Assembly (NCBI RefSeq): GCF_040529185.1
Contig: NZ_CP159510.1
Location: 1,488,001 to 1,552,000 of the forward strand
DNA: 64,000 nucleotides
Direction: 5' to 3'
Source of the DNA: Sporolactobacillus sp. Y61
Lineage (GTDB): Bacteria; Bacillota; Bacilli; Bacillales; Sporolactobacillaceae
In this document: piece after piece, positions 5,335 through 39,750 of the stretch
How the letters are laid out: every line of letters begins with the position of its first letter
How positions within the stretch are numbered: the stretch's first letter is position 1
Notes under the pieces: model-generated
The model's input: only the letters and a program-made list of their open reading frames with translations
Database searches by the model: none
What the model was told of the DNA's origin: nothing
Translations under genes and position numbers: made by a program

Positions 5335-6783
5335 ATGAACCAGCTGTCACAAAAACGGGCGCCTGTACTTGAAGCGCTGAACCGTTTTAAGGCCATGCGG
5401 GTTGTTCCGTTCGATGTACCCGGGCACAAGAGAGGGCGGGGAAACAGGGAACTGGCTGATTTTCTCGGCGACCGCTGCCTGTCGGTTGATGTCAATTCCA
5501 TGAAGCCGCTCGACAACCTCTGCCATCCGGTTTTGGTCATCAGGGATGCGGAAGACCTCGCGGCTGAGGCATTCGGGGCGGAACACGCGTTTTTTATGGT
5601 GAACGGGACCACCTCAGCTGTCCAGAGTATGGTGATGAGTGTCTGCAAGCGCGGAGAAAAAATCATTATGCCGCGTAATGTGCACCGGAGCGCAATCAAT
5701 GCCCTGATTCTGAGCGGTGCGGTGCCTGTCTATGTCAATCCCGGTATGAACCGTGATCTGGGGATCTCTCTGGGCATGTCTCTTGACGATGTCAGGCAGG
5801 CTGTGATCGAAAATCCGGATGCGAAAGCGGTCCTTGTCAACAATCCGACCTATTATGGCATCTGTTCCAATCTGAAGGCGATCACGGATCTGGCGCATGA
5901 ATATGGCATGCGTGTTCTCGTTGATGAAGCACACGGCACGCACTTCTACTTTGGTGAACAGATGCCGGTGACCGCGATGGCCGCCGGTGCTGACATGGCT
6001 GCTGTCAGTATGCACAAGTCGGGCGGGTCGCTGACGCAGAGCTCGCTTTTGCTGACGAGTCATGGGATGAGTGAAGGGTATGTCCGCCAAATCATTAACC
6101 TGACGCAGACGACCAGCGGTTCCTATCTGCTGATCTCTTCGCTGGACATTTCCCGGCGTAATCTCGCTCTGAACGGCCGGCGGATTTTCAGCAGAGTCAG
6201 CACGATGGCGGAATATGCCCGGTCTGAGATCAACAGGATCGGCGGTTATTACGCCTTTTCAGGCGAGCTCATCAACGGGGATACCATTTATGATTTTGAC
6301 CGGACGAAGCTGTCGATACACACCCTGGAGCTTGGTCTGGCGGGGATTGAGGTCTACGATACGCTGCGTGATGAATACGATATCCAGATTGAATTCGGTG
6401 ATATTGGGAATATTCTGGCTTATCTGTCGATCGGTGACCGGATTCTGGATATCGAACGACTTGTCTCGGCATTGTCTGAAATCCGGAGGCAATATGCCGG
6501 AGATAAAACGGGCATGCTCAGCCAGGAATATATCCGGCCGCAGGTTGTGGCTGCGCCGCAGGAAGCGTTTTATGCGGAAAGTGAATCGGTTGCGCTCAAT
6601 GAAAGCAGCGGCAGGATCTGCGGTGAATTTGTCATGTGCTATCCGCCCGGCATCCCGATTCTTGCTCCCGGCGAACGGATCACAGCCGATATATTAACGT
6701 ATATCCGCTATGCGAAGGAAAGAGGCTGCTTTCTGACGGGTACCCGGGACAGCAGGGTCAATCGCCTGCAGGTGATCAAGTGA
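5335..6783 (+). CDS. speA: PLP-dependent arginine/lysine/ornithine decarboxylase (SpeA/YaaO type)
   Basis: A 482-residue fold-type I decarboxylase of the short Bacillus SpeA class (about 490 residues), without the N-terminal wing domain of enterobacterial inducible enzymes. Near the N-terminus is 'FDVPGHKRGRG', typical of this family. The cofactor lysine is expected at K228 in 'SMHKSGGSLTQSS', preceded by 'VDEAHGTHF' which binds the pyridine ring. By family and operon context it probably makes agmatine from arginine, feeding polyamine synthesis; lysine or ornithine cannot be excluded from sequence. No agmatinase gene is visible in the window. The stop codon TGA coincides with the border of a structured repeat at 6782-6952. 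Confidence 0.85.
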   Translation: MNQLSQKRAPVLEALNRFKAMRVVPFDVPGHKRGRGNRELADFLGDRCLSVDVNSMKPLDNLCHPVLVIRDAEDLAAEAFGAEHAFFMVNGTTSAVQSMVMSVCKRGEKIIMPRNVHRSAINALILSGAVPVYVNPGMNRDLGISLGMSLDDVRQAVIENPDAKAVLVNNPTYYGICSNLKAITDLAHEYGMRVLVDEAHGTHFYFGEQMPVTAMAAGADMAAVSMHKSGGSLTQSSLLLTSHGMSEGYVRQIINLTQTTSGSYLLISSLDISRRNLALNGRRIFSRVSTMAEYARSEINRIGGYYAFSGELINGDTIYDFDRTKLSIHTLELGLAGIEVYDTLRDEYDIQIEFGDIGNILAYLSIGDRILDIERLVSALSEIRRQYAGDKTGMLSQEYIRPQVVAAPQEAFYAESESVALNESSGRICGEFVMCYPPGIPILAPGERITADILTYIRYAKERGCFLTGTRDSRVNRLQVIK

Positions 6784-6952
6784 AACGTCAATCAGTGGGC
6801 GCGCAGGACGAGCCCGCGCAGGCGTTGCGACAGGACGCCCTCGTTTTTAACCTGCCCTGATTGCTCGTTGAACCCATCGGACGGCTGCGGACAGTGATCC
6901 CCCAGACATGTTCGTGTACCCTCATGGCCCTGAGGTGGTACTGCCCGTTCAT
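6782..6952 (-). ncRNA. Structured repeat, HEARO/omega-RNA-like element (copy A)
   Basis: Read on the minus strand it begins ATGAACGGGCAGT and ends in ...CAATCAG ... CTGATTG-like pairing and GTTTCA. GGGCAGT near the 5' end can pair with ACTG(T/C)CCG in the middle, and a second stem forms near the 3' end. The same architecture is seen at 27408-27600. The ATGA at the 5' border fits my memory of HEARO elements (HNH endonuclease-associated RNA, now known as IscB omega RNA). No IscB gene is present. The element fills the gap between speA and speE and overlaps the speA stop. Confidence 0.55.
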
Positions 6953-6975
6953 GCGGGATAAAGGAGGCGAAGGGT

Positions 6976-7826
6976 TTGGAATTATGGTTTACGGAGAAGC
7001 ATACGAAGCATGTGAAGTTTTCGATTCAGGTAGACAAACAGATCTATTCCGGCCGGAGTGAGTTTCAGCGAATCGACCTCTTTGATTCACCTGAATTCGG
7101 CCGGTTTCTGACCCTCGACGGCTATATGATGCTGACGGAGAAAGATGAATTTATCTATCACGAGATGATCATCCATGTCCCGATGGCTGTGCATCCTCAA
7201 GCAAAGCGTGTGCTCGTCATTGGAGGCGGAGACGGCGGTGCTGTCCGGGAACTGGTGCGTTATCCGGGCATTGAACAGATTGATCTCGTGGAAATTGACC
7301 GGCAGGTGGTCGAAGTCTGTAAAAAATTCTTGCCGCAAACCGCCGGCGGTCTGGACGACCCCGGGTGTCGATCCATTATGAGGACGGCCTGAAATTTGTT
7401 CGGACAAAAGATCAGGCATATGATTTAATTGTTGTAGATTCAACAGACCCGTTCGGCCCGGGTGAGGGGCTTTTTACCAAAGAGTTTTATGGCAATTGTT
7501 ATAAAGCCCTTCGCGCAGACGGGCTGATGGTCAATCAGCAGGAAAGCCCCTTTTATCCTGTAGATGCCGTGGCGATGCAACGGGCGCACAAGCGGATTGT
7601 TGCCTCGTTCCCGGTCAGCCGCGTCTATCAGGCGCATATTCCCACTTATCCGTCGGGACACTGGCTGTTCGGATTCGCATCGAAAAAGGATCATCCGACA
7701 AAGGATTTTGATCCGGAAGCGTGGCTAAAACTCGGCCTCAGGACGCGATACTACAATCCGGACATTCATATCGGTGCCTTTGCCCTGCCGAACTATGTGA
7801 AGGATCTCTTGGAAGAAGTTGAGTAA
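6976..7826 (+). pseudogene. speE: Spermidine synthase with a single-base frameshift
   Basis: Two overlapping frames together give one complete polyamine aminopropyltransferase of about 283 residues (B. subtilis SpeE is 276). The first frame, from TTG 6976 (AAGGAGG eight bases upstream), has 'WFTEKHTKHVKFS', the S-adenosyl-binding 'VIGGGDGG' and 'LVEIDRQVVE', and runs out at 7392. The second frame resumes with 'VSIHYEDGLKF' and contains 'VVDSTDPFGPG' and 'IPTYPSGHW'. Expected reading through 'LDDPRVSIHYEDG' needs one more C in the run at 7359-7362. The enzyme would transfer aminopropyl from decarboxylated S-adenosylmethionine to putrescine or agmatine. All catalytic blocks are intact, so a sequencing error is as likely as real inactivation. 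Confidence 0.88.
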
Positions 7827-7851
7827 GGACATTTAAGGAGGCGTTCATCAA

Positions 7852-9051
7852 ATGGGAAAAGCGTTAATTATCGGAGCAGGCGGTGTCGCTGGTGTTGTGG
7901 TACACAAATGCTGCCAGAATCCGGCTGTTTTTGAAGAAATCTGCATTGCAAGCCGTACCGTATCCAAATGCGAGGCTTTAAAAAAGAAACTGGACGGAGG
8001 GCGGACAAAGATTCAGACGGCACAGGTCGACGCGAATCACGTTCCGGAACTGGTGGCACTGATTAAGAAGTTTCAGCCTGATATCGTGATTAACGTGGCC
8101 CTTCCGTATCAGGATCTGACCATTATGGACGCCTGCCTTGAGACCGGAGTGGACTATGTCGACACAGCCAATTATGAACCGGAGGATACGGCGAAGTTTG
8201 AATATAAATGGCAGTGGGCGTACCGGGACAGATTTAAGGAGGCCGGGATTACGGCTCTTCTCGGAAGCGGGTTCGACCCGGGCGTCACCGGTGTTTTTTC
8301 GGCCTACGCGCAGAAGCACTATTTTGATGAGATCCATCAGATTGATATACTTGATGCCAATGCAGGCGACCATGGCTATCCGTTCGCAACCAATTTCAAC
8401 CCGGAGATCAATATCCGTGAAGTGACGGCAAAAGGCAGCTATTTTGAAAAAGGCCGGTTCATCGAAACGGAACCGATGTCGTTCAAAAAAGTCTATGATT
8501 TCCCGCAGATCGGACCGAAAGATATCTACCTGCTGCATCATGAAGAGATGGAGTCCCTCGCACTCCATATCAAAGGGATTAAGAAGATCAGATTCTGGAT
8601 GACTTTCTCGCAGAGTTATCTGAACCATCTTCAGGTCCTGCAGGATGTCGGCATGACCTCGATTGAACCCATCAACTTCGAAGGAAAACAGATTGTCCCT
8701 CTGCAGTTTTTGAAGGCGGTTCTTCCGGATCCGGCTTCCCTTGGCCCGCGGACCAAAGGGAAAACGAATATCGGCTGCATCTTCCAGGGGACAAAAGGGG
8801 GCAGACCGGTCAGGTATTATGTGTACAACGTCTGTGATCACGAGGCGTGCTATAAGGAAGTCGGCTCGCAGGCTATCTCCTATACAACCGGTGTGCCGGC
8901 GATGATCGGAGCCTCGATGATCCTGACCGGCAAGTGGAAAAAGCCGGGTGTTTACAACATTGAAGAATTTGATCCCGATCCGTTCATGGACGCACTGAAT
9001 CAGTTCGGACTGCCGTGGCAGGAGAGCTTTTCGCCGGAACTGATTGACTGA
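7852..9051 (+). CDS. Carboxynorspermidine/carboxyspermidine dehydrogenase (saccharopine dehydrogenase family)
   Basis: A 399-residue protein starting 'MGKALIIGAGGVAGVVVHKC', a Rossmann dinucleotide-binding motif, followed by 'CIASRTVSKCEALKKK', the signature of carboxynorspermidine synthases (Lys1-like). The enzyme condenses aspartate semialdehyde with a diamine (or agmatine) and reduces the product with NADPH to a carboxylated polyamine. An AAGGAGG site precedes the ATG and the stop is 11 bases before the decarboxylase partner. This pathway normally replaces SpeD/SpeE, so finding it beside both is unusual. The substrate (diaminopropane, putrescine or agmatine) cannot be read from the sequence. 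Confidence 0.88.
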   Translation: MGKALIIGAGGVAGVVVHKCCQNPAVFEEICIASRTVSKCEALKKKLDGGRTKIQTAQVDANHVPELVALIKKFQPDIVINVALPYQDLTIMDACLETGVDYVDTANYEPEDTAKFEYKWQWAYRDRFKEAGITALLGSGFDPGVTGVFSAYAQKHYFDEIHQIDILDANAGDHGYPFATNFNPEINIREVTAKGSYFEKGRFIETEPMSFKKVYDFPQIGPKDIYLLHHEEMESLALHIKGIKKIRFWMTFSQSYLNHLQVLQDVGMTSIEPINFEGKQIVPLQFLKAVLPDPASLGPRTKGKTNIGCIFQGTKGGRPVRYYVYNVCDHEACYKEVGSQAISYTTGVPAMIGASMILTGKWKKPGVYNIEEFDPDPFMDALNQFGLPWQESFSPELID

Positions 9052-9062
9052 GGGGGCAGCTG

Positions 9063-10199
9063 ATGGCTATTGATTTCAGGCAGACCCCTTCGCCTTGCTA
9101 TATCGTTGATGAAGGGCTGCTCATTAAAAATCTGGAAATCCTGAATACGGTTGAACGTCAGACTGGCTGTAAGATTCTGCTGGCACAGAAGGCGTTTTCG
9201 ATGTTTTCTCTTTATCCGCTGATGGGCAGATATCTGAGCGGCGTCGCCTCAAGTTCCCTGCATGAAGCGCGGCTCGGGCGTGAGGAAATGGATAAAGAGG
9301 TGCATGTTTACTCACCCGCTTACAGGGAAAGTGAATTTGATGAGATCCTGCACGTCGCCGATCATCTTGTTTTTAACTCCTTCAGCCAGTGGCGCCGGTT
9401 TCGCGACCGGGTGAAACAATCCGGGCAGCCTGTTTCCTGCGGGATCCGGGTGAATCCGGAATACTCGGAAGTCGCCGCCGGTTTGTATAATCCGTGTGCG
9501 CCATGTTCCCGGATGGGAGTCACACTGAAAAACTTTGAACCTGATGCGCTTGAGGGCCTTGAAGGCCTGCATTTTCACACCCTGTGTGAACAAAATTCAG
9601 ATGCTCTGGAGCATACACTTTCCGCTGTAGATGAAAAGTTCGGCAGGTACCTGAAGCAGATGAAGTGGATCAACTTTGGCGGCGGACACCACATCACGCG
9701 TCCGGATTATGATCTGAGCCGGCTGAGGCGCTGCATCCGCTTCATGCAGGATAAGTATGATCTTCAGGTTTATCTGGAACCGGGTGAGGCGGTTGCGCTG
9801 AATGCGGGGTATCTCGTTGGAACTGTGCTGGATGTGATGCATAACGGCATGGATCTGGCTATACTGGATCTGTCAGCCACCTGCCATATGCCGGATGTGC
9901 TGGAGATGCCGTATCGCCCGGTGTTGATTGGAGCGGGAAAGCCTGGCGAAAAGTCGTTTACGTACCGCCTGGGTGGTCCGACCTGCCTTGCAGGAGACGT
10001 CATCGGTGATTATTCATTTGATCACCGGCTCCGCCCGGGAGATCGCCTGGTGTTCTGTGATATGGTCATATATTCCATGGTCAAGAACAATACGTTCAAC
10101 GGCGTCGGTCTCCCGTCTATTGCTGTATTTAATGAAACAGACGGACTGCGTATCGTGAAATCTTTCAGTTATAAAGATTTCAAATCACGGCTGTCCTGA
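9063..10199 (+). CDS. nspC: Carboxynorspermidine decarboxylase
   Basis: A 378-residue alanine-racemase-fold PLP decarboxylase. 'TPSPCYIVDEGLL' opens the barrel, the cofactor lysine is expected at K43 in 'LLAQKAFSMF', 'WINFGGGHHI' and 'YLEPGEAVAL' are the phosphate and substrate regions, and 'GGPTCLAGDVIGDY' carries the C-terminal catalytic cysteine. It completes the route begun by the preceding dehydrogenase by removing the carboxyl group to yield (nor)spermidine or a related triamine. Length and motifs match Vibrio and Campylobacter NspC. It ends the operon and is followed by a strong terminator. Confidence 0.92.
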   Translation: MAIDFRQTPSPCYIVDEGLLIKNLEILNTVERQTGCKILLAQKAFSMFSLYPLMGRYLSGVASSSLHEARLGREEMDKEVHVYSPAYRESEFDEILHVADHLVFNSFSQWRRFRDRVKQSGQPVSCGIRVNPEYSEVAAGLYNPCAPCSRMGVTLKNFEPDALEGLEGLHFHTLCEQNSDALEHTLSAVDEKFGRYLKQMKWINFGGGHHITRPDYDLSRLRRCIRFMQDKYDLQVYLEPGEAVALNAGYLVGTVLDVMHNGMDLAILDLSATCHMPDVLEMPYRPVLIGAGKPGEKSFTYRLGGPTCLAGDVIGDYSFDHRLRPGDRLVFCDMVIYSMVKNNTFNGVGLPSIAVFNETDGLRIVKSFSYKDFKSRLS

Positions 10200-10200
10200 A

Positions 10201-10227
10201 AAAAGCCTGCCAATCGGCAGGCTTTTT
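10201..10227 (+). terminator. Rho-independent terminator of the polyamine operon
   Basis: AAAAGCCTGCC, a short loop, GGCAGGCTTTTT: a perfect stem with T-run two bases after the nspC stop. Confidence 0.93.
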
Positions 10228-10602
10228 CTTTAAAATATGAAAAATCTGACGATAATTGCAGGATTTTGAAAGAGGAAAAAAGAAAAGAGAATATAAGAAA
10301 TTTGAGCGGACACAGTGACTGCGCCTTTTCTTATCAGACGCTTACAATCTGTTCTATAATTTAAATAAAGTAAAGCAAAAACTAAAGGAGATGTGGAAAA
10401 TCGACGTGGTGGCGCACGCAGGGCTGTCCCAAATAAACGTATTTATTAAAAATGTTTTTTCACAGGACGACCCTCCTGCGCTACACGAATAAAGGACGAT
10501 CTCCATCCGGTAATCACTGCTGAAAACCCTTAAGCCACTGGCTCCTGACGAATACATGACTGACCGGAGAACTGCTTATACTGAAACATAAGGAGGGATT
10601 CC
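10228..10602. other. Non-coding gap of 375 bp
   Basis: Short frames exist on both strands but none combines a correctly spaced ribosome binding site with a start codon. A possible -10 (TATAAT at about 10355) has no matching -35. I see no other structure. Confidence 0.5.
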
Positions 10603-10863
10603 ATGAACAAATACGGATTTTATGCTGAATTCGATGGAAAGCAGTCGTTACCTGTTGAAATCAGCCGGCCTGAGGAAACCATGATTTCAGAGACCATGCT
10701 GTCATCAATCAAGGCTTTTGCGCGTAAAAAAGGGACGGAAGTGATCGGCGTGGATGAACTGAAAGACGGTGCCATGCGTGCTTATTTTCGCAAAAAAAAG
10801 TGGTTTCACAAAAATCCCGAAATCATTTATTATGTCAGTGAAATCACTGACCGTGATTCCTGA
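10603..10863 (+). CDS. Small cytoplasmic protein of unknown function
   Basis: An 86-residue protein with a strong site (AAGGAGG, seven bases before the ATG), no signal peptide and no membrane segment. It is rich in Lys and Glu, with a central 'FARKKGTEVIGVDELKDG' and the basic 'AYFRKKKWFHKNPEI'. I do not recognise the family. It stands alone between two terminator-like hairpins, so it is probably monocistronic. Confidence 0.75.
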   Translation: MNKYGFYAEFDGKQSLPVEISRPEETMISETMLSSIKAFARKKGTEVIGVDELKDGAMRAYFRKKKWFHKNPEIIYYVSEITDRDS

Positions 10864-10868
10864 AGTCT

Positions 10869-10912
10869 GAACGCGAAGCAGAACCTGACCGCCTGCCTGC
10901 GTTCATTTTTCT
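10869..10912 (+). terminator. Terminator after the small unknown gene
   Basis: GAACGC and GCAG pair with CTGC and GCGTTC across a loop, followed by ATTTTTCTTT. It lies between convergent genes and may act for the plus-strand gene only. Confidence 0.6.
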
Positions 10913-12067
10913 TTATAACTTCAACCTGCGCAGCAGATGGCCAGCCAGTTCTGTAAAAAAACGGGCAGCGGGCAGAACAGCCTGTTCGTCAACGATCAGG
11001 TCGGGATGATGCAGATCGGAATTTCCTGAAACGCCCATGAAAAAGAAGCTGCCGGGGATCTTTTTCTGGTATTCGGCAAAATCTTCACCAATGAGGGTCA
11101 GCGGGGGTTCAACCACGTTCAACCCGCAAGCCGCAGCCGTATCAGTGGCTATTCCGGATAAAAGCGGATCATTCACCACAGGCGGGCCGAGTCTTATATA
11201 CCGGACATGCGCTTCTGTACCCAGTGCGAGCGCCGTGTGTCTGGCAACCCGTTTCATCTTTTGTTCGATATTTTCCCGTACTTCTTCGCTGAACGTGCGT
11301 ACGGTTCCTTCGAGCTGCGCCCGGTCAGGCATCACGTTCCATGTATTTCCGGCCTCCAGCCGGGTGACACTGATCAGCGCCTGATTCAGAGGGGATGTAT
11401 TCCGGCTGATAATCGTCTGCAGGGCGCCGACCATCTGCGTAGCCGCAACAATAGTATCACTCCCCTTTTCAGGCGTGGCGCCATGCGTACCGATACCTGT
11501 GATATCGATGATAAACCGGTCGACAGCGGCCATCAGCGGACCGGAACGGATGCCGATGGTACCCGTCGGTAAAGACGGCATAATGTGCATGCCGCAAATG
11601 GACTGCACATCATCAAGCAGACCGGTTTTCAACACCTCAATGGCCCCATTGCCATTCTCCTCGGCCGGCTGAAAGATGATTTTAACGGTCCCCGAAAGTT
11701 CCTCCTCACGTTCCTTCAGTAAACGCGCAGCACCCAGCATCGTCGCCATATGCACATCATGCCCGCATGCATGCATTTTTCCCGGATGAACTGAGGCAAA
11801 AGGCAATCCGGTCTGTTCTGTTATCGGGAGTGCGTCAATATCTGAACGCAGGGCAATCGTCGGACCCGGTCTCTGCCCGCCGATGACGGCCAGAGCGCCG
11901 GTTTTCAAAGGAAATGCAGCCGTTCGAATGGAAAACTGATCCAGCCATTTGCTGATCCGGGCGGTCGTTTTGTATTCCTCAAAAGCGAGTTCAGGCTCAC
12001 GGTGCAGTTGTCTGCGGCAGCTGACCAGCCATTTTTCCACTTCGGCATCTGATCTTTTTGGAGCCAT
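10913..12067 (-). CDS. M20 family metallo-amidohydrolase (N-acyl amino acid or hippurate hydrolase type)
   Basis: A 384-residue peptidase M20D protein. Zinc-site motifs are seen in order: 'ALRSDIDALPITE', 'MHACGHDVHMA', 'FQPAEENGNGA' with the catalytic Glu pair, 'GMHIMP' and near the end 'TLIGEDFAEY'. These enzymes cleave N-acyl groups from amino acids or related amides in the cytoplasm. The start ATG at 12067 follows an AGAGGAAA-type site. It is flanked by a convergent small gene and a divergent phosphoesterase, so it is likely transcribed alone. Family members include hippurate hydrolase, IAA-amino acid hydrolase and N-acetyl-diaminopimelate deacetylase; nothing here distinguishes them. Confidence 0.9.
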   Translation of the reverse strand: MAPKRSDAEVEKWLVSCRRQLHREPELAFEEYKTTARISKWLDQFSIRTAAFPLKTGALAVIGGQRPGPTIALRSDIDALPITEQTGLPFASVHPGKMHACGHDVHMATMLGAARLLKEREEELSGTVKIIFQPAEENGNGAIEVLKTGLLDDVQSICGMHIMPSLPTGTIGIRSGPLMAAVDRFIIDITGIGTHGATPEKGSDTIVAATQMVGALQTIISRNTSPLNQALISVTRLEAGNTWNVMPDRAQLEGTVRTFSEEVRENIEQKMKRVARHTALALGTEAHVRYIRLGPPVVNDPLLSGIATDTAAACGLNVVEPPLTLIGEDFAEYQKKIPGSFFFMGVSGNSDLHHPDLIVDEQAVLPAARFFTELAGHLLRRLKL

Positions 12068-12224
12068 ATGTTTTTCCTCTCTTCCCTGATCCGAAAATTC
12101 TGAAGTTAAAGCAAGAATACATGATTTTCACGGTGCCGGCAACTGGTACCTTTTTCATTCAGAGTTCATATTTTACGAAAAAACGGGCATGATAACACAG
12201 CTGATGAAATGGGAGGATGCCGTT

Positions 12225-13280: not shown

Positions 13281-13335
13281 AGAAAGAAATGGTTAAACCA
13301 TAGTAGCAGCCCCCCTTTCGAAGCAGGCTCTGAAT

Positions 13336-14894: not shown

Positions 14895-14918
14895 TTTTCT
14901 TGTCTTGAGCAAGGTTTT

Positions 14919-27222: not shown

Positions 27223-27294
27223 TTACCCCATCTGGATTCGAACCAGAACATCGCGGCCCCAGAAACCGCTGCCTTACCGTTTGGCCATGGGGTA
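27223..27294 (-). tRNA. tRNA-Gln (anticodon CTG)
   Basis: 72 bases on the minus strand: acceptor TACCCCA with TGGGGTA, D-arm GCCAAACGGTAAGGC, anticodon loop TTCTGGG closed by GCGGT/GCCGC, T-arm with GGTTCGAATCC. The U1-A72 start fits tRNA-Gln. CCA is not encoded. Confidence 0.92.
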
Positions 27295-27407
27295 TTAAAT
27301 CAGAACAAGAATTATTATATCCACTATTGACGAATAATGCAAGTCCATTTCCGGGAAAAATTGAAAGTCTATATTTTTACAATTTTCCTGACAACATTTG
27401 ATCCCTC

Positions 27408-27600
27408 ATGAACGGGCAGTACCCCATCAGGGTCACGAGGGTAAATGAATGGGCCAGGGCGCGGGATCACTGCCCGCAGAAGCCCAATGGATTCAACGAG
27501 CAATCAGCGGAGATGAAACAGGCTAAAAATGCGACATCCAGTCACAACGCATGCACGAGCACGTCCTGTTCGCCCGAAACCCCCACTGATTGAAGTTTCA
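27408..27600 (+). ncRNA. Structured repeat, HEARO/omega-RNA-like element (copy B, longest)
   Basis: Begins ATGAACGGGCAGTACCCC and ends CCCACTGATTGAAGTTTCA. Conserved pairings are ACGGGCAGT (27411-27419) with ACTGCCCGC (27469-27477), and CAATCAG with CTGATTG enclosing a variable 3' loop of about 70 bases. Blocks ACGAGGGTAAATGAA and CAATGGATTCAACGAG recur in the other copies. The ATGA border and stem layout resemble HEARO RNAs; there is no linked IscB. Short frames inside are not genes. Confidence 0.6.
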
Positions 27601-27712
27601 TTTGATTCCTCCGCCAGGCATCAGATTTCCTGGAATGATAAAATATGGATAGTGGACCCGAGCCAGGATCACTCGTGCAGGGTTCATGATAACGATAGAG
27701 GAATGAGGGTTT

Positions 27713-30202: not shown

Positions 30203-30322
30203 TCACCGTCTGATGGCAGGATAGACGCGCGATGACGTGTATTGAACACCCTTTATCATTCGTGTCATAATAGAGCTATGATTACAGTCGGTTAAAAAAA
30301 GTATAGAACGGGAGAGGTCACT

Positions 30323-31699: not shown

Positions 31700-31724
31700 A
31701 GAAATCAGGAAGAGGGATGGATGT

Positions 31725-33137
31725 ATGACGGAAAAAGTAAAGGTCAGGCCGAATAAGGAAGATTTTCTGAAAGACCTGTCGGCGCTCATTGCCATTAAAA
31801 GTACGAAGGAGAGTTCAGAAGCGAAAGACGGAGCCCCGTTTGGTCCCGGACCGCTTGCGGCATTAAATCACATGCTTGAACTCGGTAAACGCGACGGCTT
31901 CCGGACAAAAAACCTGCTGGGCTACGCGGGGTATATTGAATACGGACCGGAAGATGCTGAGGACTATATTGCCGTCCTTGGACATGTCGATGTCGTGCCG
32001 GCGACAGGTAACTGGTCACATGACCCTTTTACCCTGTATCAGGAGGGCGACACGCTCTATGCCCGCGGCGCAATCGATGACAAAGGGCCCACATTAGCGG
32101 CGTACCATGCCCTCAAATCCCTGAAAGCGTCCGGCCTGCCGATCAGGCACCGGATCCGGCTGGTTATCGGTACGGATGAGGAGAGTGGCTGTGAATGCCT
32201 GATTAAGTACAACGAGCTTGAACCGATGTCGCTGTTCGGTTTCGCGCCGGATGCCGAGTTTCCGTTGATCTTCGCTGAAAAAGGGCGGATCTTTGCCCGC
32301 ATCGATGTACCGGGGGAAGAGGAGGCAGGCGCTGTCCAACTGGCGGAGTTTACCTCCGGAGAGCGGGTGAACATGGTCCCGGATCATGCGTATGCGGTGC
32401 TTTCAGGAGCTGAAGTAGAAAAATGGGCGAATGAGGCGAAGCAAAAATTAAACGATCAGGGGACCCCTTTTTCAGCAGAAAAAACAGCTGGAGGGGTCAA
32501 ACTGACGGTTAAAGGGAAGTCCGCCCATGGGTCACAGCCGGCGGACGGCATTAATGCGTCCTTTCTCCTTGCATCAGCCCTTAGAGAGATTCCATTTGCC
32601 TCATCGGAAAAAGCCTTCATCTCACTCCTGGCTGATACGCTGAATCGTGATTTTTCCGGTGAACGGCTCCATGTCGCTTTCAGTGATGACATTTCAGGAG
32701 ACCTGACGGTAAACGCGGGACTCTCCCGCTACAAAGGCGGTCAGGGGGGGTCAGTTTCTCTTGATCTTCGTTGCCCGATTAAAGCTGATTTGGAGCAGAC
32801 GGCAGAAACGCTGACACAGACAGTAGAAGGCTTCGGTTTCAAAATCGGCAGGCTTGAGAAGAGCAAGCCGCTCTATATGGATCCGAAGCTGCCGGGTGTA
32901 CAGATTCTGAAGCGGGTGTATGAAGAACACATGGGCCAGAAAGATGTGACGCTCCTGACCTCCGGCGGCGGGACCTACGCCCAGTATCTCGACGCAGGTG
33001 TAGCCTTTGGCGCCTGCATGCCGGGTTATCCGTATACCGGCCATCAGGTGGACGAGCATGTCAGACTGCATGATCTCCTGAAGGCATCGGAAATTTATGC
33101 AGATGCCATGTATGAACTCGGAAATTTGGAGAAATAA
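31725..33137 (+). CDS. pepV: PepV-type dipeptidase (M20 family)
   Basis: 470 residues, the length of Lactobacillus PepV. Metal ligands are in 'VLGHVDVVPATGNW', 'YARGAIDDKGPTLAA' and 'GTDEESGCECL'; 'GKSAHGSQPADGINA' is in the lid domain and 'GGGTYAQYLDAGVAFG' near the end. It splits dipeptides, including beta-Ala and D-Ala types, in the cytoplasm. The start 31725 is selected for AGAGGG eight bases upstream; the frame is open back to 31668, which overlaps manC. Confidence 0.93.
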   Translation: MTEKVKVRPNKEDFLKDLSALIAIKSTKESSEAKDGAPFGPGPLAALNHMLELGKRDGFRTKNLLGYAGYIEYGPEDAEDYIAVLGHVDVVPATGNWSHDPFTLYQEGDTLYARGAIDDKGPTLAAYHALKSLKASGLPIRHRIRLVIGTDEESGCECLIKYNELEPMSLFGFAPDAEFPLIFAEKGRIFARIDVPGEEEAGAVQLAEFTSGERVNMVPDHAYAVLSGAEVEKWANEAKQKLNDQGTPFSAEKTAGGVKLTVKGKSAHGSQPADGINASFLLASALREIPFASSEKAFISLLADTLNRDFSGERLHVAFSDDISGDLTVNAGLSRYKGGQGGSVSLDLRCPIKADLEQTAETLTQTVEGFGFKIGRLEKSKPLYMDPKLPGVQILKRVYEEHMGQKDVTLLTSGGGTYAQYLDAGVAFGACMPGYPYTGHQVDEHVRLHDLLKASEIYADAMYELGNLEK

Positions 33138-33152
33138 GCACTTCGAATAAAG

Positions 33153-33270
33153 TGAAACTTCAATCAGTGGGGGACTCTTTATCCTCCACTGATTGTTAGT
33201 TGAACTAATCGGGCAGCTGCGGGCAGTTGTCCCCACCTGCCCATGTTCATTTACCCTCATACTCCTGAAG
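33153..33270 (-). ncRNA. Structured repeat, HEARO/omega-RNA-like element (copy C, 5'-truncated)
   Basis: Minus-strand copy that keeps the middle and 3' part: ATGAGGGTAAATGAACATGGGCAGG, split in the others as GAGGGTAAATGAA, then ACTGCCCGCAGC, the hairpin CAATCAGTGG/CCACTGATTG and TGAAGTTTCA. The 5' ATGAACGGGCAGT block is missing, so the main stem cannot form. It looks like a decayed copy. Confidence 0.55.
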
Positions 33271-33367
33271 AGGAAAAACAGCAGAAAAAAAGGATAAAGT
33301 GTTTGACGGTTCGCAAAAAGTCGAATATATTGTTTTTAAAAGCTTTTTGTGAACGGGAGAGATGAGT

Positions 33368-34108
33368 ATGGGAGACAGGCCGGTAATCGGAGTGACGGCG
33401 AGCTTTGTCAAGAAGACCGATTTTTCTCTCGGACCTTATACACATCGTGATTATGTGACGGCCCTCTTAAACGCAGATGCTCTGCCGGTGATTTTGCCGA
33501 TTGCCCCGGAAGAGACGGCAGACGCTTATCTCAGCCTGTGTGACGGTATTATTTTCAGCGGCGGCGGGGATGTCGATCCGAGGTTTTTCGGCGAGTCGCC
33601 ATCCCTTTATCTGGATACATTCATCACGGAAAGAGACCGGATCGAATTCGCGCTGATGAAAAAAGCAGTTGCTGCGGGCAAGCCCATTCTGGGTATCTGC
33701 CGTGGCATGCAGGTGCTTAATGTGATGTATGGCGGTACGCTGGTGCAGGATCTGCCGACCGAATGGAAAAATCCATTGCAGCATGACCAGAAAGTGCCGC
33801 GGAAGAAGGCCAGCCACAGCGTGCGTCTGCTTTCGGGCAGCCGTCTTTCGGCACTTTTTGACGATAAAGAGTCGCTTTATGTGAACAGTCTTCACCATCA
33901 GGCGATTAAAAAACTGGCTGCGGGTTTTCGTTCGGCCGCTGTCGCACCGGACGGCGTAATTGAGGCCATTGAACACGAGACAAATGACCGGATTCTCGGT
34001 GTCCAGTGGCATCCTGAATCAATGGCTTCAGGCGGTGACCCGATGATGTGCCGTCTGTTCCGTCATTTTGTCAGTCAATGTGACCGGATTAAAGAAAAAA
34101 TGGTGTAA
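33368..34108 (+). CDS. Class I glutamine amidotransferase, gamma-glutamyl-GABA hydrolase (PuuD-like) family
   Basis: 246 residues of the peptidase C26 family. The nucleophile is expected at C111 in 'ILGICRGMQVLNV', with 'YVNSLHHQAI' and the His-Glu pair in 'GVQWHPESM'; 'DGIIFSGGGDVDPRFF' forms the oxyanion region. Family members remove gamma-linked glutamate, for example from gamma-glutamyl-GABA in putrescine breakdown or from other gamma-glutamyl amines. No other putrescine-degradation gene is adjacent, so the substrate is open. The ATG at 33368 has GGGAG eight bases upstream and is preferred to 33362. Confidence 0.9.
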   Translation: MGDRPVIGVTASFVKKTDFSLGPYTHRDYVTALLNADALPVILPIAPEETADAYLSLCDGIIFSGGGDVDPRFFGESPSLYLDTFITERDRIEFALMKKAVAAGKPILGICRGMQVLNVMYGGTLVQDLPTEWKNPLQHDQKVPRKKASHSVRLLSGSRLSALFDDKESLYVNSLHHQAIKKLAAGFRSAAVAPDGVIEAIEHETNDRILGVQWHPESMASGGDPMMCRLFRHFVSQCDRIKEKMV

Positions 34109-34111
34109 GGG

Positions 34112-34146
34112 ACAAACCGGAGCAGCTGAAGGCTGCTCCGGTTTGT
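34112..34146 (+). terminator. Strong hairpin after the amidotransferase gene
   Basis: ACAAACCGGAGCAGC pairs perfectly with GCTGCTCCGGTTTGT. There is no T-run, so it may be a transcript-end stabiliser rather than a classic terminator. Confidence 0.6.
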
Positions 34147-34280
34147 GCTGATATCAGATCCTCACCCGGGAAAACGGCACAAAAAAGACGTAAATTCCGG
34201 TTACTTTTCATGTGCGAGGCTGATAGGTTAAGGATGCTGAACATAACTTTTAAAAAAAATTTCCGGGGGATTGTTTTTTC

Positions 34281-34963
34281 ATGACAAAAGGGATTATCTG
34301 GCTGATTGCGAGCGTGCTGATAAATGCTTTTGGGAATGCACTGACCGTTAAGGCGGCTCTGGGATCTGCCCGTGGACGGCGGCAGGTCTGAATCTGGCCC
34401 ATGTTTCCGGGATAACAGTCGGAAACGCGCTGATTATCATGGGACTGGTCGTTCTGGTTGCTGATGATTTTCTGAGACGGCACTGGAACGGGATTAAAGA
34501 TGTTTTTAATTTTCTGTATCTGCTTTCATTCGGTTATGTGGTGGACCTCTGGCTTTTTGTCATACAGCGCGTGAGTATTGACGGGATCTTGTTCAGGGTC
34601 GTCGTCTGTGTATTCGGAGTCGTCTGTATCGGCGCAGCGCTTTCCATCTATTTTCGTGTCAATCTTTGCCTCCACCCTTTTGATGATCTGATGAAAATCC
34701 TCCGTGAAAAGTATTTGCATGGGAATGTCGTGCGCGCTCAGCGGATTTCACTTGGCATTCCGCTTTCCATCGCACTCATGATCGGTCTGTCGCAGCATCA
34801 GCTGATCGGGATCAGTCTCGGAACAGCGGTCAGCTTTTTATGTATGGGCTATTTTATCATATTCTTCGATAAAAGGCTGCACCTGTATCTGAATCGAAAA
34901 TGGACGTTCGGCCTGCATCTGCCGCATCGGAGGATGAGTAAAGCCGGCCATTTAAAATCCTGA
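34281..34963 (+). pseudogene. YczE/YitT-like integral membrane protein with frameshift
   Basis: The first frame reads 'MTKGIIWLIASVLINAFGNA' and reaches 'KAALGSA' before a premature stop. Adding one C to the run at 34369-34371 joins it to 'PWTAAGLNLAHVSGITVGNA' and the long downstream frame, giving about 227 residues with five or more membrane segments, as in the YczE family ('LGSAPWD' is a family motif). Function of the family is not established. All membrane segments remain intact, so a sequencing error is possible. It stands alone. Confidence 0.8.
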
Positions 34964-35185
34964 ACAGATTCATTTCAGTAAAGCAATTTTTATGCGTTGG
35001 TATTCCCAATTCAGTATGCAATCGTGCAGATGGACAGCTGTCAGGCAAATCTGATGCAGTTTTAATAAGCATTGAAAAATGGTGATGCCTCTGCCTTTTC
35101 CATTTCTAATAAAGTTCATTTTATCGTCATTTAGCCCATAGACAAAGCATGAATGTTGTTAACTGACTCAGGCAGCCCGGTTTAC

Positions 35186-36190
35186 TTAATCCTTTTGGAC
35201 AAATTTTTCATGATGTGTGCTCACCGTTGCCTGAGAGGGCGCCTCCGGATCCAAATCGTGCTTAATAGCATTAACTGCCGCAGCACCTTCAACGAAACCG
35301 ACAGCAATCAGGTAGAACTTGTTCGGATAAGAGGCAGCGTTGCCGATCGCAAAGATACCCTTAACGGAAGACTCCATCCGCTGATCGACCACTATCCCGT
35401 TATTTTCTATTGACAACCCCCAGTTTTCAATCCCGCCGAGCCCAAACCGGAACCCGTGATTAACAATGAGGGCATCCGCAGGAATCACTTTAGTCTGGCT
35501 CGTTTTCGTTTCCCGTATCGTCACGGATTGCAATTTATCCGAACCTGACAAGTCGATCAGTTCAGAATTAAGCTTCACATTAACTGAATGCTTTCTCAAT
35601 CGACGTACTTGGTGCTCCAATGCATGAGTAAACGAATCACCTCTGTACACGACTGTAACCTGCCTGCAAACCTGCGAAAGTTCAGCCGCCCAGTCTAGCG
35701 CGGCATCACCGCCACCGGAAATGACTACACGCTTGCCGGAAAATTGCCGGATCTGATGAACGGCATAGAACAGGCTGGTGTTTTCAAAGCGTTCCGCACC
35801 ATCAAGCTGCAATTTATTCACTTCAAATGTTCCACAGCCAACGGCTAAAATGATCTTACGTGTAACATGCACATCACCATTTGTGCTGGTCAACTGAAAA
35901 AGACCATCTTCCTGGACTTTAAGTCGATCAATCACCTGATTTTTTACAATTTTCGGCTGGAATGTTTTCGCCTGCTGTGTCAGTTGTTCAATCAGTTCTT
36001 CACCTCTGATTTTTACAATTCCGCCAACATCATAGATGCATTTTTCCGGATAGAAATGCGTGACAACGCCACCTAAATCAGGTTTTGCCTCAATCAGTTT
36101 TGTTTTCAGGGAACGCATGCCGCTGTAAAAAGCGGTGTAAAGTCCTGCTGGTCCTCCGCCAATAATCGTCACATCGTATAAATCGTTCAT
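35186..36190 (-). CDS. Ferredoxin/flavodoxin-NADP reductase-type flavoprotein (YumC/IruO-like)
   Basis: 334 residues of the thioredoxin-reductase-like FNR family. FAD motif 'DVTIIGGGPAGLYTAFYSG', NADPH motif 'VVISGGGDAALDWAAEL' and C-terminal 'GIFAIGNAASYPNKFYLIAVG' are present; the redox-active CxxC of thioredoxin reductase is absent, which separates it from TrxB. It is 87 bases downstream of the siderophore-binding lipoprotein gene and on the same strand, so it probably supplies electrons for releasing iron from imported siderophore or for a heme-degrading enzyme, as IruO does in Staphylococcus aureus. A general ferredoxin reductase role is the alternative. Confidence 0.85.
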   Translation of the reverse strand: MNDLYDVTIIGGGPAGLYTAFYSGMRSLKTKLIEAKPDLGGVVTHFYPEKCIYDVGGIVKIRGEELIEQLTQQAKTFQPKIVKNQVIDRLKVQEDGLFQLTSTNGDVHVTRKIILAVGCGTFEVNKLQLDGAERFENTSLFYAVHQIRQFSGKRVVISGGGDAALDWAAELSQVCRQVTVVYRGDSFTHALEHQVRRLRKHSVNVKLNSELIDLSGSDKLQSVTIRETKTSQTKVIPADALIVNHGFRFGLGGIENWGLSIENNGIVVDQRMESSVKGIFAIGNAASYPNKFYLIAVGFVEGAAAVNAIKHDLDPEAPSQATVSTHHEKFVQKD

Positions 36191-36277
36191 TGCTGTGCTC
36201 CTTTACTGTGAAGCTCATTTTCTTCAAAAATTTTTATGCATCAATGATTAACTCGTGCTTTCTCATATTGATGAAGA

Positions 36278-37294
36278 TCAGTGATACAGATCCGGATACA
36301 TATCTTTTGCCAGCTGTTCAAGCCCGTCCAGTGTATTGTAGCTGTAACTGAACAAATAATTATAATCCATGGTGTATACCTGCCTGTTTTTAATTGCTTT
36401 CATACTGGACAGTTTCGGATTGTTATAGAGCGCCTTTCTGATTTCATCCCTGTTATGATGCCATTCGAGAACGATCAGGACATCCGGATCCGACTGAACC
36501 AGAGTCTCAACACTGATATCCCCCCGCTTATGGGCAAATATATTATTTAGTTTAACCATCTGAAATGCTTTATTGAAAAAGGTTTCTCCATACGCAGGGT
36601 AAACATAGATATTGTTCAGATCCGACATATGCAGATACGCAAAAGATTGTGTCCTGGGGATTTTTGATAATTTGGAGGTAATCTTTTTCTGACGCTCTTT
36701 CAATTGATCGGAAAAAGCCTGTGCCCGATCCTGCACGTTGAATATTTTCCCGAGATTCCTGATGTCTGTGTAAATGGAATCAAATGAACCACCAGGAATA
36801 GAGGATTCAAGAACATAGGTTCCAATGCCCATATTATTCAGTGAGTCGATGGTACCGACACCCCAGTCTGCATTTTCAAACAATCCTCCGCGACTGACGA
36901 TGATATCCGGATTCGTTCCGATTGCTGCTTCTTTTCCCACATAAAAATGACTCAGTTTCTTCAGTGATTCATAATCAGAAGAGACAGATTTATCAGGAGT
37001 CCCGAAGTCTCCTCCGACACCAACAATTCGGTTTTTCAGCCCGAGATGAAGGAGCAACTCAGCGACGGTCCGTGTCGTTGCCATAATCCTTTTCGGTTCT
37101 TTTTGAAAGACCTGATCCTTCCCGTGCCATTCTGCGCTGCCTTCTGCTTTTGTATAGTTATGAACAGTGACCGGATAATGGGATGGATTGCTGCCTGCTT
37201 TCCCGTCTGATTCTTCTGTTGCTGAACTCCCACAGCCGGCAATAAGCAGAACCATGGCCAGAGAACCGGCGACCAATACTTTCAACTTATTCAT
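36278..37294 (-). CDS. Iron-siderophore/heme ABC transporter substrate-binding lipoprotein
   Basis: 338 residues with a lipoprotein signal peptide: 'VLLIAGCGSS' with the lipidated Cys at 21. It has the FecB/BtuF fold pattern, 'KRIMATTRTVAELLLHLGL' early and 'DVLIVLEWHHNRDE' in the C-lobe, joined by a long helix. It would catch a ferric siderophore, heme or cobalamin outside the membrane. The gene is in line with the ATPase and permease genes upstream in the transcript, 48 bp after the ATPase stop. The perfect Fur box before the permease favours iron. Confidence 0.9.
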   Translation of the reverse strand: MNKLKVLVAGSLAMVLLIAGCGSSATEESDGKAGSNPSHYPVTVHNYTKAEGSAEWHGKDQVFQKEPKRIMATTRTVAELLLHLGLKNRIVGVGGDFGTPDKSVSSDYESLKKLSHFYVGKEAAIGTNPDIIVSRGGLFENADWGVGTIDSLNNMGIGTYVLESSIPGGSFDSIYTDIRNLGKIFNVQDRAQAFSDQLKERQKKITSKLSKIPRTQSFAYLHMSDLNNIYVYPAYGETFFNKAFQMVKLNNIFAHKRGDISVETLVQSDPDVLIVLEWHHNRDEIRKALYNNPKLSSMKAIKNRQVYTMDYNYLFSYSYNTLDGLEQLAKDMYPDLYH

Positions 37295-37341
37295 TTTCTA
37301 TTCTCCCCTTTTGTGAAACAGTAAGTATTGCTTTTGAGTGA

Positions 37342-38103
37342 TCAGAACCCGTAAGCGAAACTGAGGCGATGGGTCACAGGATTTTCATAGGTTTGACATT
37401 TTATGTGGTACAGGGCTTCAATCGTTCCAGGTGTAAGTACCTCTTCCGGTTTTCCATGCGCATAAATTTCCCCGTCTTTAATTGCATACAAATAATCACA
37501 GTACATCACAGCCAGTTCAAGATCATGCAGAGCTGCAAGAACGCTGATACCCAGATGTTTCACGCAGTTCAGAATTTCATACTGGTAACGAATATCCAAG
37601 TGGTTTGTGGGTTCATCAAGGATCATGAGTTGCGGCTGCTGGGCTATGGTGCGTGCAAGAATCACGCGCTGCTTTTCACCGCCGGACAGTGACAGATAGC
37701 TGCGCTTGCGGTAATCGAGCAACTGAGTACGTCGCAGGGCCTCTTCGAAAATCTCATAGTCCTGTGCTTTGTCTGATTCAAGCAGTTTTTTATGCGGCGT
37801 CCTTCCCAGAAGGACCATCTGCTCAACTGTCAGGTCAAAGCTCATTTCATTAAACTGACCGACAACCCCCAGATGTTGCGACACCTTTTTTTCGGAACTC
37901 TTCAAAACATCCAGTTTATCCAGAAATATGGTTCCGCTTTGTGGCTGTATACTTTTATAGATACTTTTCAGCAGTGTTGACTTTCCACATCCGTTAGGAC
38001 CAATCAAGCCGACAAATTGCCTGTTTTTCACAAAGACAGAAACTTTATTGATAATTTCTTTTTTGCCTCTTCTCACCTTCAGGTCTTCTGCAGCGAGTTT
38101 CAT
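37342..38103 (-). CDS. FecE-type ABC transporter ATP-binding protein
   Basis: 253 residues. Walker A 'GLIGPNGCGKSTLLKS', Q-loop near 'GVVGQFNEMSF', signature 'LSLSGGEKQRVILAR', Walker B 'QLMILDEPTNHLD' and H-loop 'LAALHDLELA' are all intact. It powers iron-chelate import with the preceding FecCD permease (four bases apart) and the following lipoprotein. The ATG at 38103 follows an AGGATGAGG-type site. Confidence 0.94.
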   Translation of the reverse strand: MKLAAEDLKVRRGKKEIINKVSVFVKNRQFVGLIGPNGCGKSTLLKSIYKSIQPQSGTIFLDKLDVLKSSEKKVSQHLGVVGQFNEMSFDLTVEQMVLLGRTPHKKLLESDKAQDYEIFEEALRRTQLLDYRKRSYLSLSGGEKQRVILARTIAQQPQLMILDEPTNHLDIRYQYEILNCVKHLGISVLAALHDLELAVMYCDYLYAIKDGEIYAHGKPEEVLTPGTIEALYHIKCQTYENPVTHRLSFAYGF

Positions 38104-38107
38104 AACC

Positions 38108-39187
38108 TCATCCTCCGAAATTGTAGCCTTTTTTCACGATAATATAGATGAAGAGCGGGGCGCCGATTAAAGAAGTAAGAATACCGATCGGCAGGTCAAC
38201 ATTCGGGATCAGCGTTCGTGACAGAATATCTGCCCAGATGAGGAACAGACCGCCGACAAGTATGCTAGCCGGGACCAACCGCTTATGATTTGAGCCGAAG
38301 ATACCCCGGCAAATGTGCGGTACAATCAGTCCCACAAAACCGATTGTGCCGGTATAGGCAACCATTGTCCCTGTAATCAGCGCTGCAATAATCATATAAA
38401 TCTTGCGAAAGGCGCTCAGATTGATCCCAAGGGTAACAGCGGATTCATCACCGAGCAGCATGGTATTTAACACACGGTGCTGGAACAGAAAAATAAAACA
38501 GCCGCTCAGCACAACAACAGAGAGAATCGGAATTTTATCCCAGCTCGACTGAGCAAGGCTCCCCATTGTCCAGAATGTTACGTTCTTGATTCCCTCAGCA
38601 TTGTTGGAAAAGTAAATCACCAGACTGGCAAATGAACTGCAGAATGCACCAACCACGACACCGGAGAGAACGAGCTTCACTGAAGTTGCCCTGCCGCCAA
38701 TGCTCGAAAGCAAAAGCACTGCAGCTGATGTGACTGCTGCACCGACAAAAGCACCGAATGCTGTGCCAAAATTTGAAAAAAAAGCGCTTGCACCAAAACC
38801 GAAAAGGATGGCAACCGTTGCACCAAGTGAGGCACCTGAAGAAATTCCGATAATATAGGGATCTGCAAGCGGGTTCTGTACGACGGCCTGCATAACTGTC
38901 CCGCACAGGGAAAGTCCCATGCCGATCAGTAAAGCGAAAATAACCCGGGGCATTCGAATCTGATAGATGATATTGAGATAAGAATCCTCAGTCAGGCCGT
39001 CTATTGAACCAAGCCGGCCGTGGGTCAGAACATGCAGTAAAACATTCATTGACTGGTTGAACGGAATATGTACCTGTCCTGTTGATACCGAAAATACTGT
39101 CGATACAGCGATCAGAAAGAGAAGGAAAAGTAAGATCGGAAAGAAGAAACAACCAATGATATCATGCCCGGCTCCGCGTTTAATCAA
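38108..39187 (-). CDS. FecCD family iron-chelate ABC transporter permease
   Basis: 359 residues with about ten membrane helices. Family motifs 'QNPLADPYIIGISSGASLGA' and 'GTIGFVGLIVPHICRGIFG' are present, the latter contacting the ATPase. It is the first gene of the permease-ATPase-lipoprotein-reductase operon and is preceded at 39215-39233 by a perfect Fur box. Only one permease gene is visible, so it probably works as a homodimer. Confidence 0.94.
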   Translation of the reverse strand: MIKRGAGHDIIGCFFFPILLFLLFLIAVSTVFSVSTGQVHIPFNQSMNVLLHVLTHGRLGSIDGLTEDSYLNIIYQIRMPRVIFALLIGMGLSLCGTVMQAVVQNPLADPYIIGISSGASLGATVAILFGFGASAFFSNFGTAFGAFVGAAVTSAAVLLLSSIGGRATSVKLVLSGVVVGAFCSSFASLVIYFSNNAEGIKNVTFWTMGSLAQSSWDKIPILSVVVLSGCFIFLFQHRVLNTMLLGDESAVTLGINLSAFRKIYMIIAALITGTMVAYTGTIGFVGLIVPHICRGIFGSNHKRLVPASILVGGLFLIWADILSRTLIPNVDLPIGILTSLIGAPLFIYIIVKKGYNFGG

Positions 39188-39214
39188 ATGATCACCTCGC
39201 CATCCTGTTTAACT

Positions 39215-39233
39215 GATAATGATTATCATTATC
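39215..39233 (-). promoter_or_regulatory. Fur box
   Basis: GATAATGATTATCATTATC, a perfect 19-bp palindrome apart from the central base, matching the Fur consensus and 28 bp upstream of the permease start. It indicates repression of the uptake operon when iron is plentiful. Confidence 0.93.
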
Positions 39234-39292
39234 TAGTAAAATATTAAGCCTAATGATAAAAAAATTCAAGGGACACCAGAAATAAATTATTC

Positions 39293-39321
39293 TTGACATT
39301 TTGCATGTCAGTCGCAATAAT
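39293..39321 (+). promoter_or_regulatory. Promoter of the T-box leader
   Basis: TTGACA at 39293-39298 and AATAAT at 39316-39321, spacing 17 bp, directed towards the T-box and S-adenosylmethionine hydrolase gene. Confidence 0.7.
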
Positions 39322-39339
39322 AAGTGTTAATGAAAAACT

Positions 39340-39714
39340 TCGCGGCACCAGATTTTCACGGCCTGGATTGAACTCCGGCTGCACCGGGGTATGATCTCTG
39401 GAGTTTTATCATTTTAAAAATGTGTGAAAAAGCGATGATGAGAAGAAGTAGAAAACGCTGCTTTTCCGCAGAGAGCCTCCGTCCGGTGAGAGGGGGCAAA
39501 AGTAGCCTTTCGAACATGGCCTCAGAGCTGCGTGTCTGAATAACGGAATGACCGAAGTAAGACACGACGGGTAAGGATACCCGTTACAACAACCGGAGTA
39601 TAAGAACTGCACGGCAGTCCCGTACTTACTGAGGCCGGTAATGTGAGTTACCGGTGAATAAAGGTGGTTACACGAATTAAAACCTCGTCCTTATGATTAA
39701 GGACGGGGTTTTAA
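39340..39714 (+). ncRNA. T-box riboswitch, specifier probably AUG (Met)
   Basis: The 375-base leader has T-box landmarks in order: 'AGAAGAAGTAG' with the AGTA loop (about 39441), the stem I apical motif around 'AGAGAGCCTCCG...GGTGAGAGG', a specifier loop 'CGAACATGGCCTCAGAG' with candidate codon ATG at 39516-39518, an antiterminator T-box near GGTGGTTACACG (39663-39674) and a terminator AACCTCGTCCTT/AAGGACGGGGTTTT (39681-39714). TGGT in the T-box can pair with ACCA of a tRNA with discriminator A, as tRNA-Met has. The T-box core differs from the usual GGTGGTACCACG at two positions. Confidence 0.82.
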
Positions 39715-39735
39715 ATTTTCCGGCAAATAATAAAG

Positions 39736-39750
39736 TGAGGCTTCAATCAG
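39736..39750 (-). repeat. 3'-terminal fragment of the HEARO-like repeat (copy D)
   Basis: TGAGGCTTCAATCAG equals the terminal block of copies A and C (TGAAACTTCAATCAG) with two changes, preceded by the same TAAAG as in copy C. Only this end is left. Confidence 0.45.

Follow-up and report, generated by a model that had tools for sequence, protein, structure and literature searches.

A 64,000-nucleotide stretch of Sporolactobacillus sp. Y61 (contig NZ_CP159510.1, positions 1,488,001 to 1,552,000; hereafter the window) carries a short structured sequence at four places, and the question raised by this locus is whether that sequence is an RNA gene or a piece of mobile DNA. The initial annotation had described it as a dispersed RNA-like repeat resembling orphan HEARO/IscB omega RNAs, with non-autonomous and partly decaying copies. 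We confirmed that the dispersed repeat at the four noted places is real, and the copies, their ends, the covarying stems, the precise empty sites and the tandem junctions were all observed. We regard it as likely that the repeat is a non-autonomous mobile DNA element with hairpins near its ends, whose movement depends on a Y1 (HUH) transposase supplied in trans. The guide-RNA reading thus gives way to that of a mobile repeat whose empty sites are precise, and the earlier suggestion of a non-autonomous mobile element, some copies of which are decaying, is supported.

Copies in the window and in the genome

All four places carry related sequence of the repeat, but far more copies exist than the four originally counted. 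In the window's genome (G000, a single contig of 3,224,419 bases in which the window is C1:1488001-1552000), BLAST with the copy at 27408-27600 as query gave 47 matches, and a 21-base right-end pattern with at most 3 mismatches gave 73 matches, decayed copies included, versus 1 for the backwards pattern. A covariance model, R1, was built on 32 short-form copies from several families, with the window's four excluded, and it recovered the three longer window copies with about 100-105 bits (E 3.7e-20 or better): 33145-33298 (minus strand) with 105.4 bits, 27398-27608 (plus strand) with 102.3 bits and 6773-6962 (minus strand) with 100.4 bits. The fourth place, 39728-39769 (minus strand), scored only 11.4 bits (E 0.96), and, R1 being low there, the copy was recognised by eye and by its end motif.

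The first copy (6775..6957, minus strand, CCCGCATGAACGGGCAGT...GACGTTTCACTTGAT, exact ends by eye) is a long form with an inner module, and its left target TTTAT lies at 6958-6962. The second (27403..27606, plus strand, CCCTCATGAACGGGCAGT...GAAGTTTCATTTGAT, found by R1 and BLAST, exact ends by eye) is likewise long and follows a left target TTGAT at 27398-27402. The third (33147..33293, minus strand, right end TTTAT) is a short copy and had been described as lacking its 5' part; T-rich sequence does stand in place of some 20-25 nucleotides (nt) at the element's left, but the left TTTAT (33294-33298) is kept, and it is the inner module that is absent. The fourth, formerly taken for a bare 3' end, is by eye and end motif a minimal remnant (39730..39764, minus strand, CCCGTAAGG...GAAGCCTCACTTTAT) with CCCG kept at the left, TTTAT at the right and the middle deleted; its left pentamer is TTAAT (39765-39769) and its right-end motif has 2 mismatches (genome 1527730-1527750).

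Borders and insertion sites

Lining up the copies gave the border order as a target TTTAT (sometimes TTGAT), then CCCGCATGAACGGGCAGT..., and finally ...CTGATTGAAGTTTCAC-TTTAT. The element opens with CCCGC after the 5-base target (TTTAT or TTGAT) and closes with TTTCAC followed by TTTAT or TTGAT, which means that the earlier borders located the repeat but lay a few bases inside the true ones. ATGA is not the border, as the element starts upstream of it at CCCGC, and many relatives have CATTAACGG, not CATGAACGG. The size is about 150 nt (most short forms are 148-158 nt) and reaches about 315 nt with nested modules. The left end, TTTATCCCGC, and the right end, TTTCACTTTAT, do not form an inverted repeat. 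In place of such termini the element has two subterminal hairpins conserved by covariation, P2 on the left, about 20 nt in from the left border, and P3 on the right, which stops about 9 nt short of the terminal TTTAT. Some copies have been truncated or carry an internal deletion or inversion, and tandem copies occur, joined by a single common TTTAT and in several cases pairing a short form with a long form. One locus per strain (L101 and L138) appears by eye to have a portion of the sequence between the P1 arms (see below) inverted.

Comparison of flanks with relatives revealed precise empty sites: eight copies were tried, and three matched well across the junction. The copy at C1:236207-236366 of G061 (genus g12) splits a stretch that runs without a break in G164 and G571. 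The occupied site reads CTCTTCAT, then CCCGC...TTTCACTTTAT, then TCGAATG, and the empty site in G164 and G571 reads CTCTTCATTCGAATG. Of the two flanking pentamers, the empty site contains the left TTCAT but not the right TTTAT; the former is therefore the site's own and the latter the element's, and the target was not duplicated. Moreover, G061 and G164 have each acquired an insertion of their own in one reading frame, at different points, each genome serving as the other's empty site, and the flanks of these in-gene insertions join in frame (VIY-KDG; VDL-FEKG). The third cross-junction match, a 52-base remnant compared between G164 and G061, was less clean. Insertion 3' of a short target without duplication, as in IS200/IS605-type elements, was thus found in relatives.

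In G000, 30 of 48 left ends stand directly after TTTAT, versus 0.2% of window positions. Among the 43 two-ended copies, a few of whose end pairings are probably chance, TTTAT flanks both sides in 18, differs at the left only in 8, at the right only in 6 and at both in 11, and the two pentamers are equal in 1 of these last 11. The presence of TTTAT on both sides of many copies, together with the window copy that has TTGAT on both sides, would agree with a miniature inverted-repeat transposable element (MITE) of the DDE type that makes a TTTAT-like 5-bp duplication. However, the ends are not inverted repeats, the TTCAT empty site gave a right TTTAT and not a TTCAT, and left flanks other than TTTAT are seldom repeated at the right, so that we consider a target-duplicating MITE very unlikely. 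Terminator-like left flanks were seen in 15 of 43 copies of G000 and 20 of 68 others, versus 19% and 12% of random TTTAT sites; this excess is modest, the control sites were not limited to intergenic DNA, and we claim no preference.

Conserved fold and the guide-RNA question

The two stems proposed at the outset, GGGCAGT/ACTGCCC and CAATCAG/CTGATTG, are both real and covary, and a further stem lies inside the first. In the second window copy (plus strand), the 5' arm of P1, GGGCAGT, is at 27414..27420 and its 3' arm, ACTGCCC, at 27469-27475, and the 5' arm of P3, CAATCAG, is at 27501..27507 and its 3' arm, CTGATTG, at 27586-27592; the third stem, P2 (CCCCACC/GGTGGGG), is enclosed by P1. RNAalifold on 32 copies recovered P1 and P3 unaided, with compensatory changes in 7 of 17 pairs and a small covariation term (-0.11), and P2 was added by us inside P1 before R1 was built. 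When 40 R1 matches were aligned, 94.4% of the cells paired and 16 of 29 pairs showed double changes, with 80 double-change cells observed versus 21.9 +/- 4.2 in shuffled alignments (0 of 500 shuffles as high) and 2-13 in a control in which the partners were slid; this alignment was fitted to the structure and hence biased towards it, and the shuffles ignore relatedness. P1 (helix 1) was 98.6% paired with double changes in 4 of 7 pairs, and P3 (helix 3) 95.5% paired with double changes in 7 of 13. The fold is conserved, yet covariation does not tell RNA from single-stranded DNA.

Could the copies then be primarily RNA genes, either orphan HEARO/omega-like guides or another small RNA, which spread as a by-product? 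The strong covariation of three stems over 40 sequences is what such genes would show, and G-U cells on the element strand (29) exceed A-C mismatch cells (17), a weak excess that would make the element strand the folding strand. However, hairpins of single-stranded DNA account equally well for the covariation, copies are truncated, internally deleted, internally inverted or in tandem, and in copies of G535 and G578 the 3' arm of P1 is, by eye, displaced by a Bacillaceae-1 module. Further, six copies with their flanks were compared with all 4227 Rfam families under permissive filters, and no match to HEARO (RF02033) appeared up to E=10, a search that included no HEARO positive control; nor was any HEARO found in the whole window at the gathering score. 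HEARO/omega RNA was accordingly rejected as the identity of the repeat. A search of the genome for RRXRR, the domain of IscB, gave no match; it was equally silent in 14 control genomes, so this negative says little. We consider the RNA-gene explanation unlikely; an RNA function of the element is possible and is not required.

Distribution among strains and relatives

We sampled 299 genomes of the order (116 genera), 398 of the class and 26 of the family, with a cut-off of E <= 0.001 for R1. R1 matched in 106 of the 299 genomes of the order and in 57 of the 116 genera, the window's own and same-species genomes being counted. The exact right-end pattern was present in 6 of 26 genomes of the family, own genome counted, and in 13 of 398 of the class, with 25 places in G061 and 89 in G164, and was missing from all 13 genomes that represent other species of the window's genus, five of which were also scanned with R1 and gave no match. 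Among named genomes, only Psychrobacillus lasiicapitis and Sporolactobacillus sp. THM19-2 showed the tandem-junction pattern (records near the window's own may be omitted). The covariance model and the border definition could serve the annotation of a family that is present in 57 of 116 sampled genera.

No match was found in plasmid and phage records with the window copy as query. A consensus-like relative as query also matched no phage, and it matched four plasmid records, one of Pseudalkalibacillus, two of Peribacillus asahii and one of Klebsiella grimontii. The copy in the last record (L201, CP079755.1 219061-224124) is partial, covering 43% of the query, and since this host is far outside Bacillales, it would indicate either transfer or assembly contamination.

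Within the window's species, about 1.0 Mb of DNA of G018, a genome listed as the same species as G000, was compared, and 20 of the 52 two-ended, flanked G000 copies could be placed in it. Three places differ by one tandem unit, with a pair in G000 and a single copy in G018 at L036 and the reverse at L105 and L035, and a fourth array, L050, runs into a G018 contig end. As for the right-end-like sites of G018, 27 of 34 match G000 DNA in the stretches searched, and the other 7 show, by eye, nothing typical of the element and seem to be chance matches. Because the compared sites are common to both strains and many copies are truncated, the copies in this species look old; we infer a loss of activity, and the element is probably frozen here.

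Proposed mechanism and candidate mobilisers

Precise insertion after a short target, lack of duplication, unlike ends, subterminal hairpins and head-to-tail arrays are the marks of single-strand Y1 transposition in the IS200/IS605 family. The precise insertion, unduplicated target, subterminal hairpins and head-to-tail arrays of the present element match these marks, and from them we infer both the type of transposase and a single-stranded intermediate. A Y1 (HUH) transposase acting in trans would recognise P2 and P3 as single-stranded hairpins, and the element strand would be excised and then inserted 3' of a pentanucleotide, usually TTTAT. With the element carrying its own right-end TTTAT, the site would gain one element and the target would stay unduplicated, and insertion after the TTTAT of a resident copy would produce tandem arrays.

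A separate, complete-looking IS200/IS605 element with both TnpA and TnpB occupies 46984-48810 of the window. Its TnpA, a Y1 (HUH) transposase, is at 47108..47509 (plus strand; PF01797, 154.5 bits) and its TnpB at 47519..48670 (plus strand), and its hairpins, identified by eye at 46984-47003 and 48791-48810, differ from the ends of the repeat. Two Y1 places were found in G000, and only the window TnpA is free of internal stops; as the sole intact Y1 gene found in the genome, it makes this element a candidate helper in trans. The second place, C1:1664530, is broken and IS200-like, for which reason a decayed REP-associated Y1 transposase (RAYT) in the window's genome was rejected. In G006, the left end of the repeat resembles the left ends of two of that genome's own IS200/IS605 elements (a likeness reached by 0 and 1 of 2000 dinucleotide shuffles).

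Several observations weigh against mobilisation of this kind. Only the TTCAT site separates a model without duplication from one with a mutated duplication; left and right pentamers vary about equally in G000 (8 versus 6), so that mutated short target duplications are possible, and the fixed right TTTAT in other genomes is partly a product of how the copies were fetched. No wholly empty site between the two strains was found among the 20 of 52 placed copies. No autonomous element with the same ends was found either: R1 matched in 3 of 33 Y1 loci, themselves part of a longer list of Y1 places, and no transposase was framed. The likeness of left ends between repeat and insertion sequence was not significant in G476 (1449 of 2000 shuffles as high), G556 (302 of 2000) and G061 (1057 of 2000). 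Lastly, a subclade of RAYT-like Y1 genes (A4 profile, E <= 1e-78) is accompanied by the element in 25 of 30 genomes.

This last association bears on the alternative that a RAYT, and not an IS200-type TnpA, acts on the element. Y1 genes of about 190 aa, which we take to be RAYTs from their length and sequence, occur in several element-rich genomes, and at one of the three Y1 loci with an R1 hit (L262, in G444) the hit scores 34 bits and stands some 400 bases upstream of a RAYT-like frame. Across the 299 genomes of the order, 81 genomes with R1 lack the subclade and 188 have neither. However, the A4 profile was made from four such genomes, its cut-off was one of five tried, and phylogeny was uncorrected. 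Moreover, RAYTs in general are unassociated with the element (R1 in 60 of 169, odds ratio 1.0), G164 with its 89 right ends, G500, G550, G632, G476 and G000 have no A4 match at E <= 1e-25, and 40 further RAYT loci, 32 of them from element-bearing genomes, gave partial weak hits in 2 and no full flanking copy. We judge a RAYT substrate to be improbable, and an IS200-type Y1 transposase is the more likely mobiliser.

The nested Bacillaceae-1 module

In many long copies the inner module matches RF01690, the Bacillaceae-1 RNA (Weinberg 2010, PMC2864571), which Rfam lists as a small RNA (sRNA) gene. It was the one family that matched all six scanned copies of G000, one of them above the gathering score (36.9 versus 35). 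In the window, Bacillaceae-1-like modules lie at the P3 tip of the first copy (6800..6866, minus strand; 33 bits, L011 1520-1586, just below the gathering score of 35) and of the second (27508..27572, plus strand; 28.7 bits, L001 1601-1665, also below it). Genome-wide, G000 has 10 matches (best E 1e-8), whose location inside elements was not checked for each, and the relatives' copies score 35.5 to 84.1 bits. The position of the module varies, as judged by eye: it occupies the P3 tip in G000 and P. lasiicapitis, the CCCGAT loop in P. lasiicapitis again and in G006, the place of the 3' arm of P1 in G535 and G578, and other spots in G476 and G556. Host sequence was, in several copies, lost to the module and not simply split by it, and in G164 (L156:1406-1472) the module lies on the strand opposite to that of the host element.

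The module is also found apart from its present host. RF01690 occurs in 147 of the 299 genomes of the order, many with at least 15 to 17 matches (about 16 candidates scored). The 30 best RF01690 loci were fetched, and R1 overlapped in 5 and lay beside in 2 more; 25 showed no overlap, and many of these are, by eye, in other repeats. Nested, multi-copy RF01690 in this and other repeats was observed at L276, L289, L292, L293, L296, L129:2346-2410, L156:1406-1472 and L113-L119. At L278, L279, L285 and L290, other repeats of the form TTTAACTTTATTCAG...CTGAATAAAGTTAAAGCCTCCGGCGGATGCC stand beside Bacillaceae-1 modules, and by eye these are maybe a sister family.

We tentatively propose, giving the idea slightly less than even weight, that the Bacillaceae-1 'sRNA' is itself mobile, enters loops and linkers of other mobile repeats (in the present element at several points and in either orientation) and has in this way reached about half of the sampled Bacillales genomes, the TTTAT element being a modular host that tolerates and spreads such passengers in a two-level, Y1-driven nesting. 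The data fit a mobile passenger better than an sRNA gene, although no clean empty site of the module was seen. What Rfam curates as an 'sRNA gene' would then perhaps be more aptly called a repetitive nested module, with consequences for how small RNAs are annotated in Bacillales.

Genes next to the window copies

An open reading frame (ORF) at 5335-6783 (plus strand, 482 aa) takes its final two codons and its stop from the antisense right end of the first copy (6775-6783), so the C-terminus of this protein was set by the insertion. The second copy lies about 100 bases from a tRNA-Gln gene (27223-27294, minus strand). The remnant at 39730-39764 sits between a T-box leader (39426-39695, plus strand, 110 bits) and an ORF at 39818-40666.

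Comparison with known systems

Four known systems resemble the element in part. RF01690 corresponds to the inner module in many of the long copies, whereas the module is a nested passenger of the element and 25 of its 30 best loci have no R1 overlap. HEARO RNAs are likewise structured repeats tied to IS200/IS605-like mobility and often occur without their protein, but the element has no match to the HEARO model and has different borders. PATE-type and other IS200/IS605-derived elements reportedly share the end hairpins, the unlike ends and a mode of insertion in which a short AT-rich target stays unduplicated on the 5' side, whereas here no parent insertion sequence with matching ends was found and the left hairpin lies within a covarying internal stem, P1. 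The bcr1 repeat of the B. cereus group is about 155 bp long, flanked by TTTAT on both sides and present in dozens of copies, with mobile features and a predicted stable fold. The size of 148-158 nt and the TTTAT borders agree with this description, whereas the present family spans 57 of 116 sampled genera of the order and many of its copies hold nested Bacillaceae-1 modules. We class the element as a non-autonomous repeat of IS200/IS605-like type that probably resembles bcr1.

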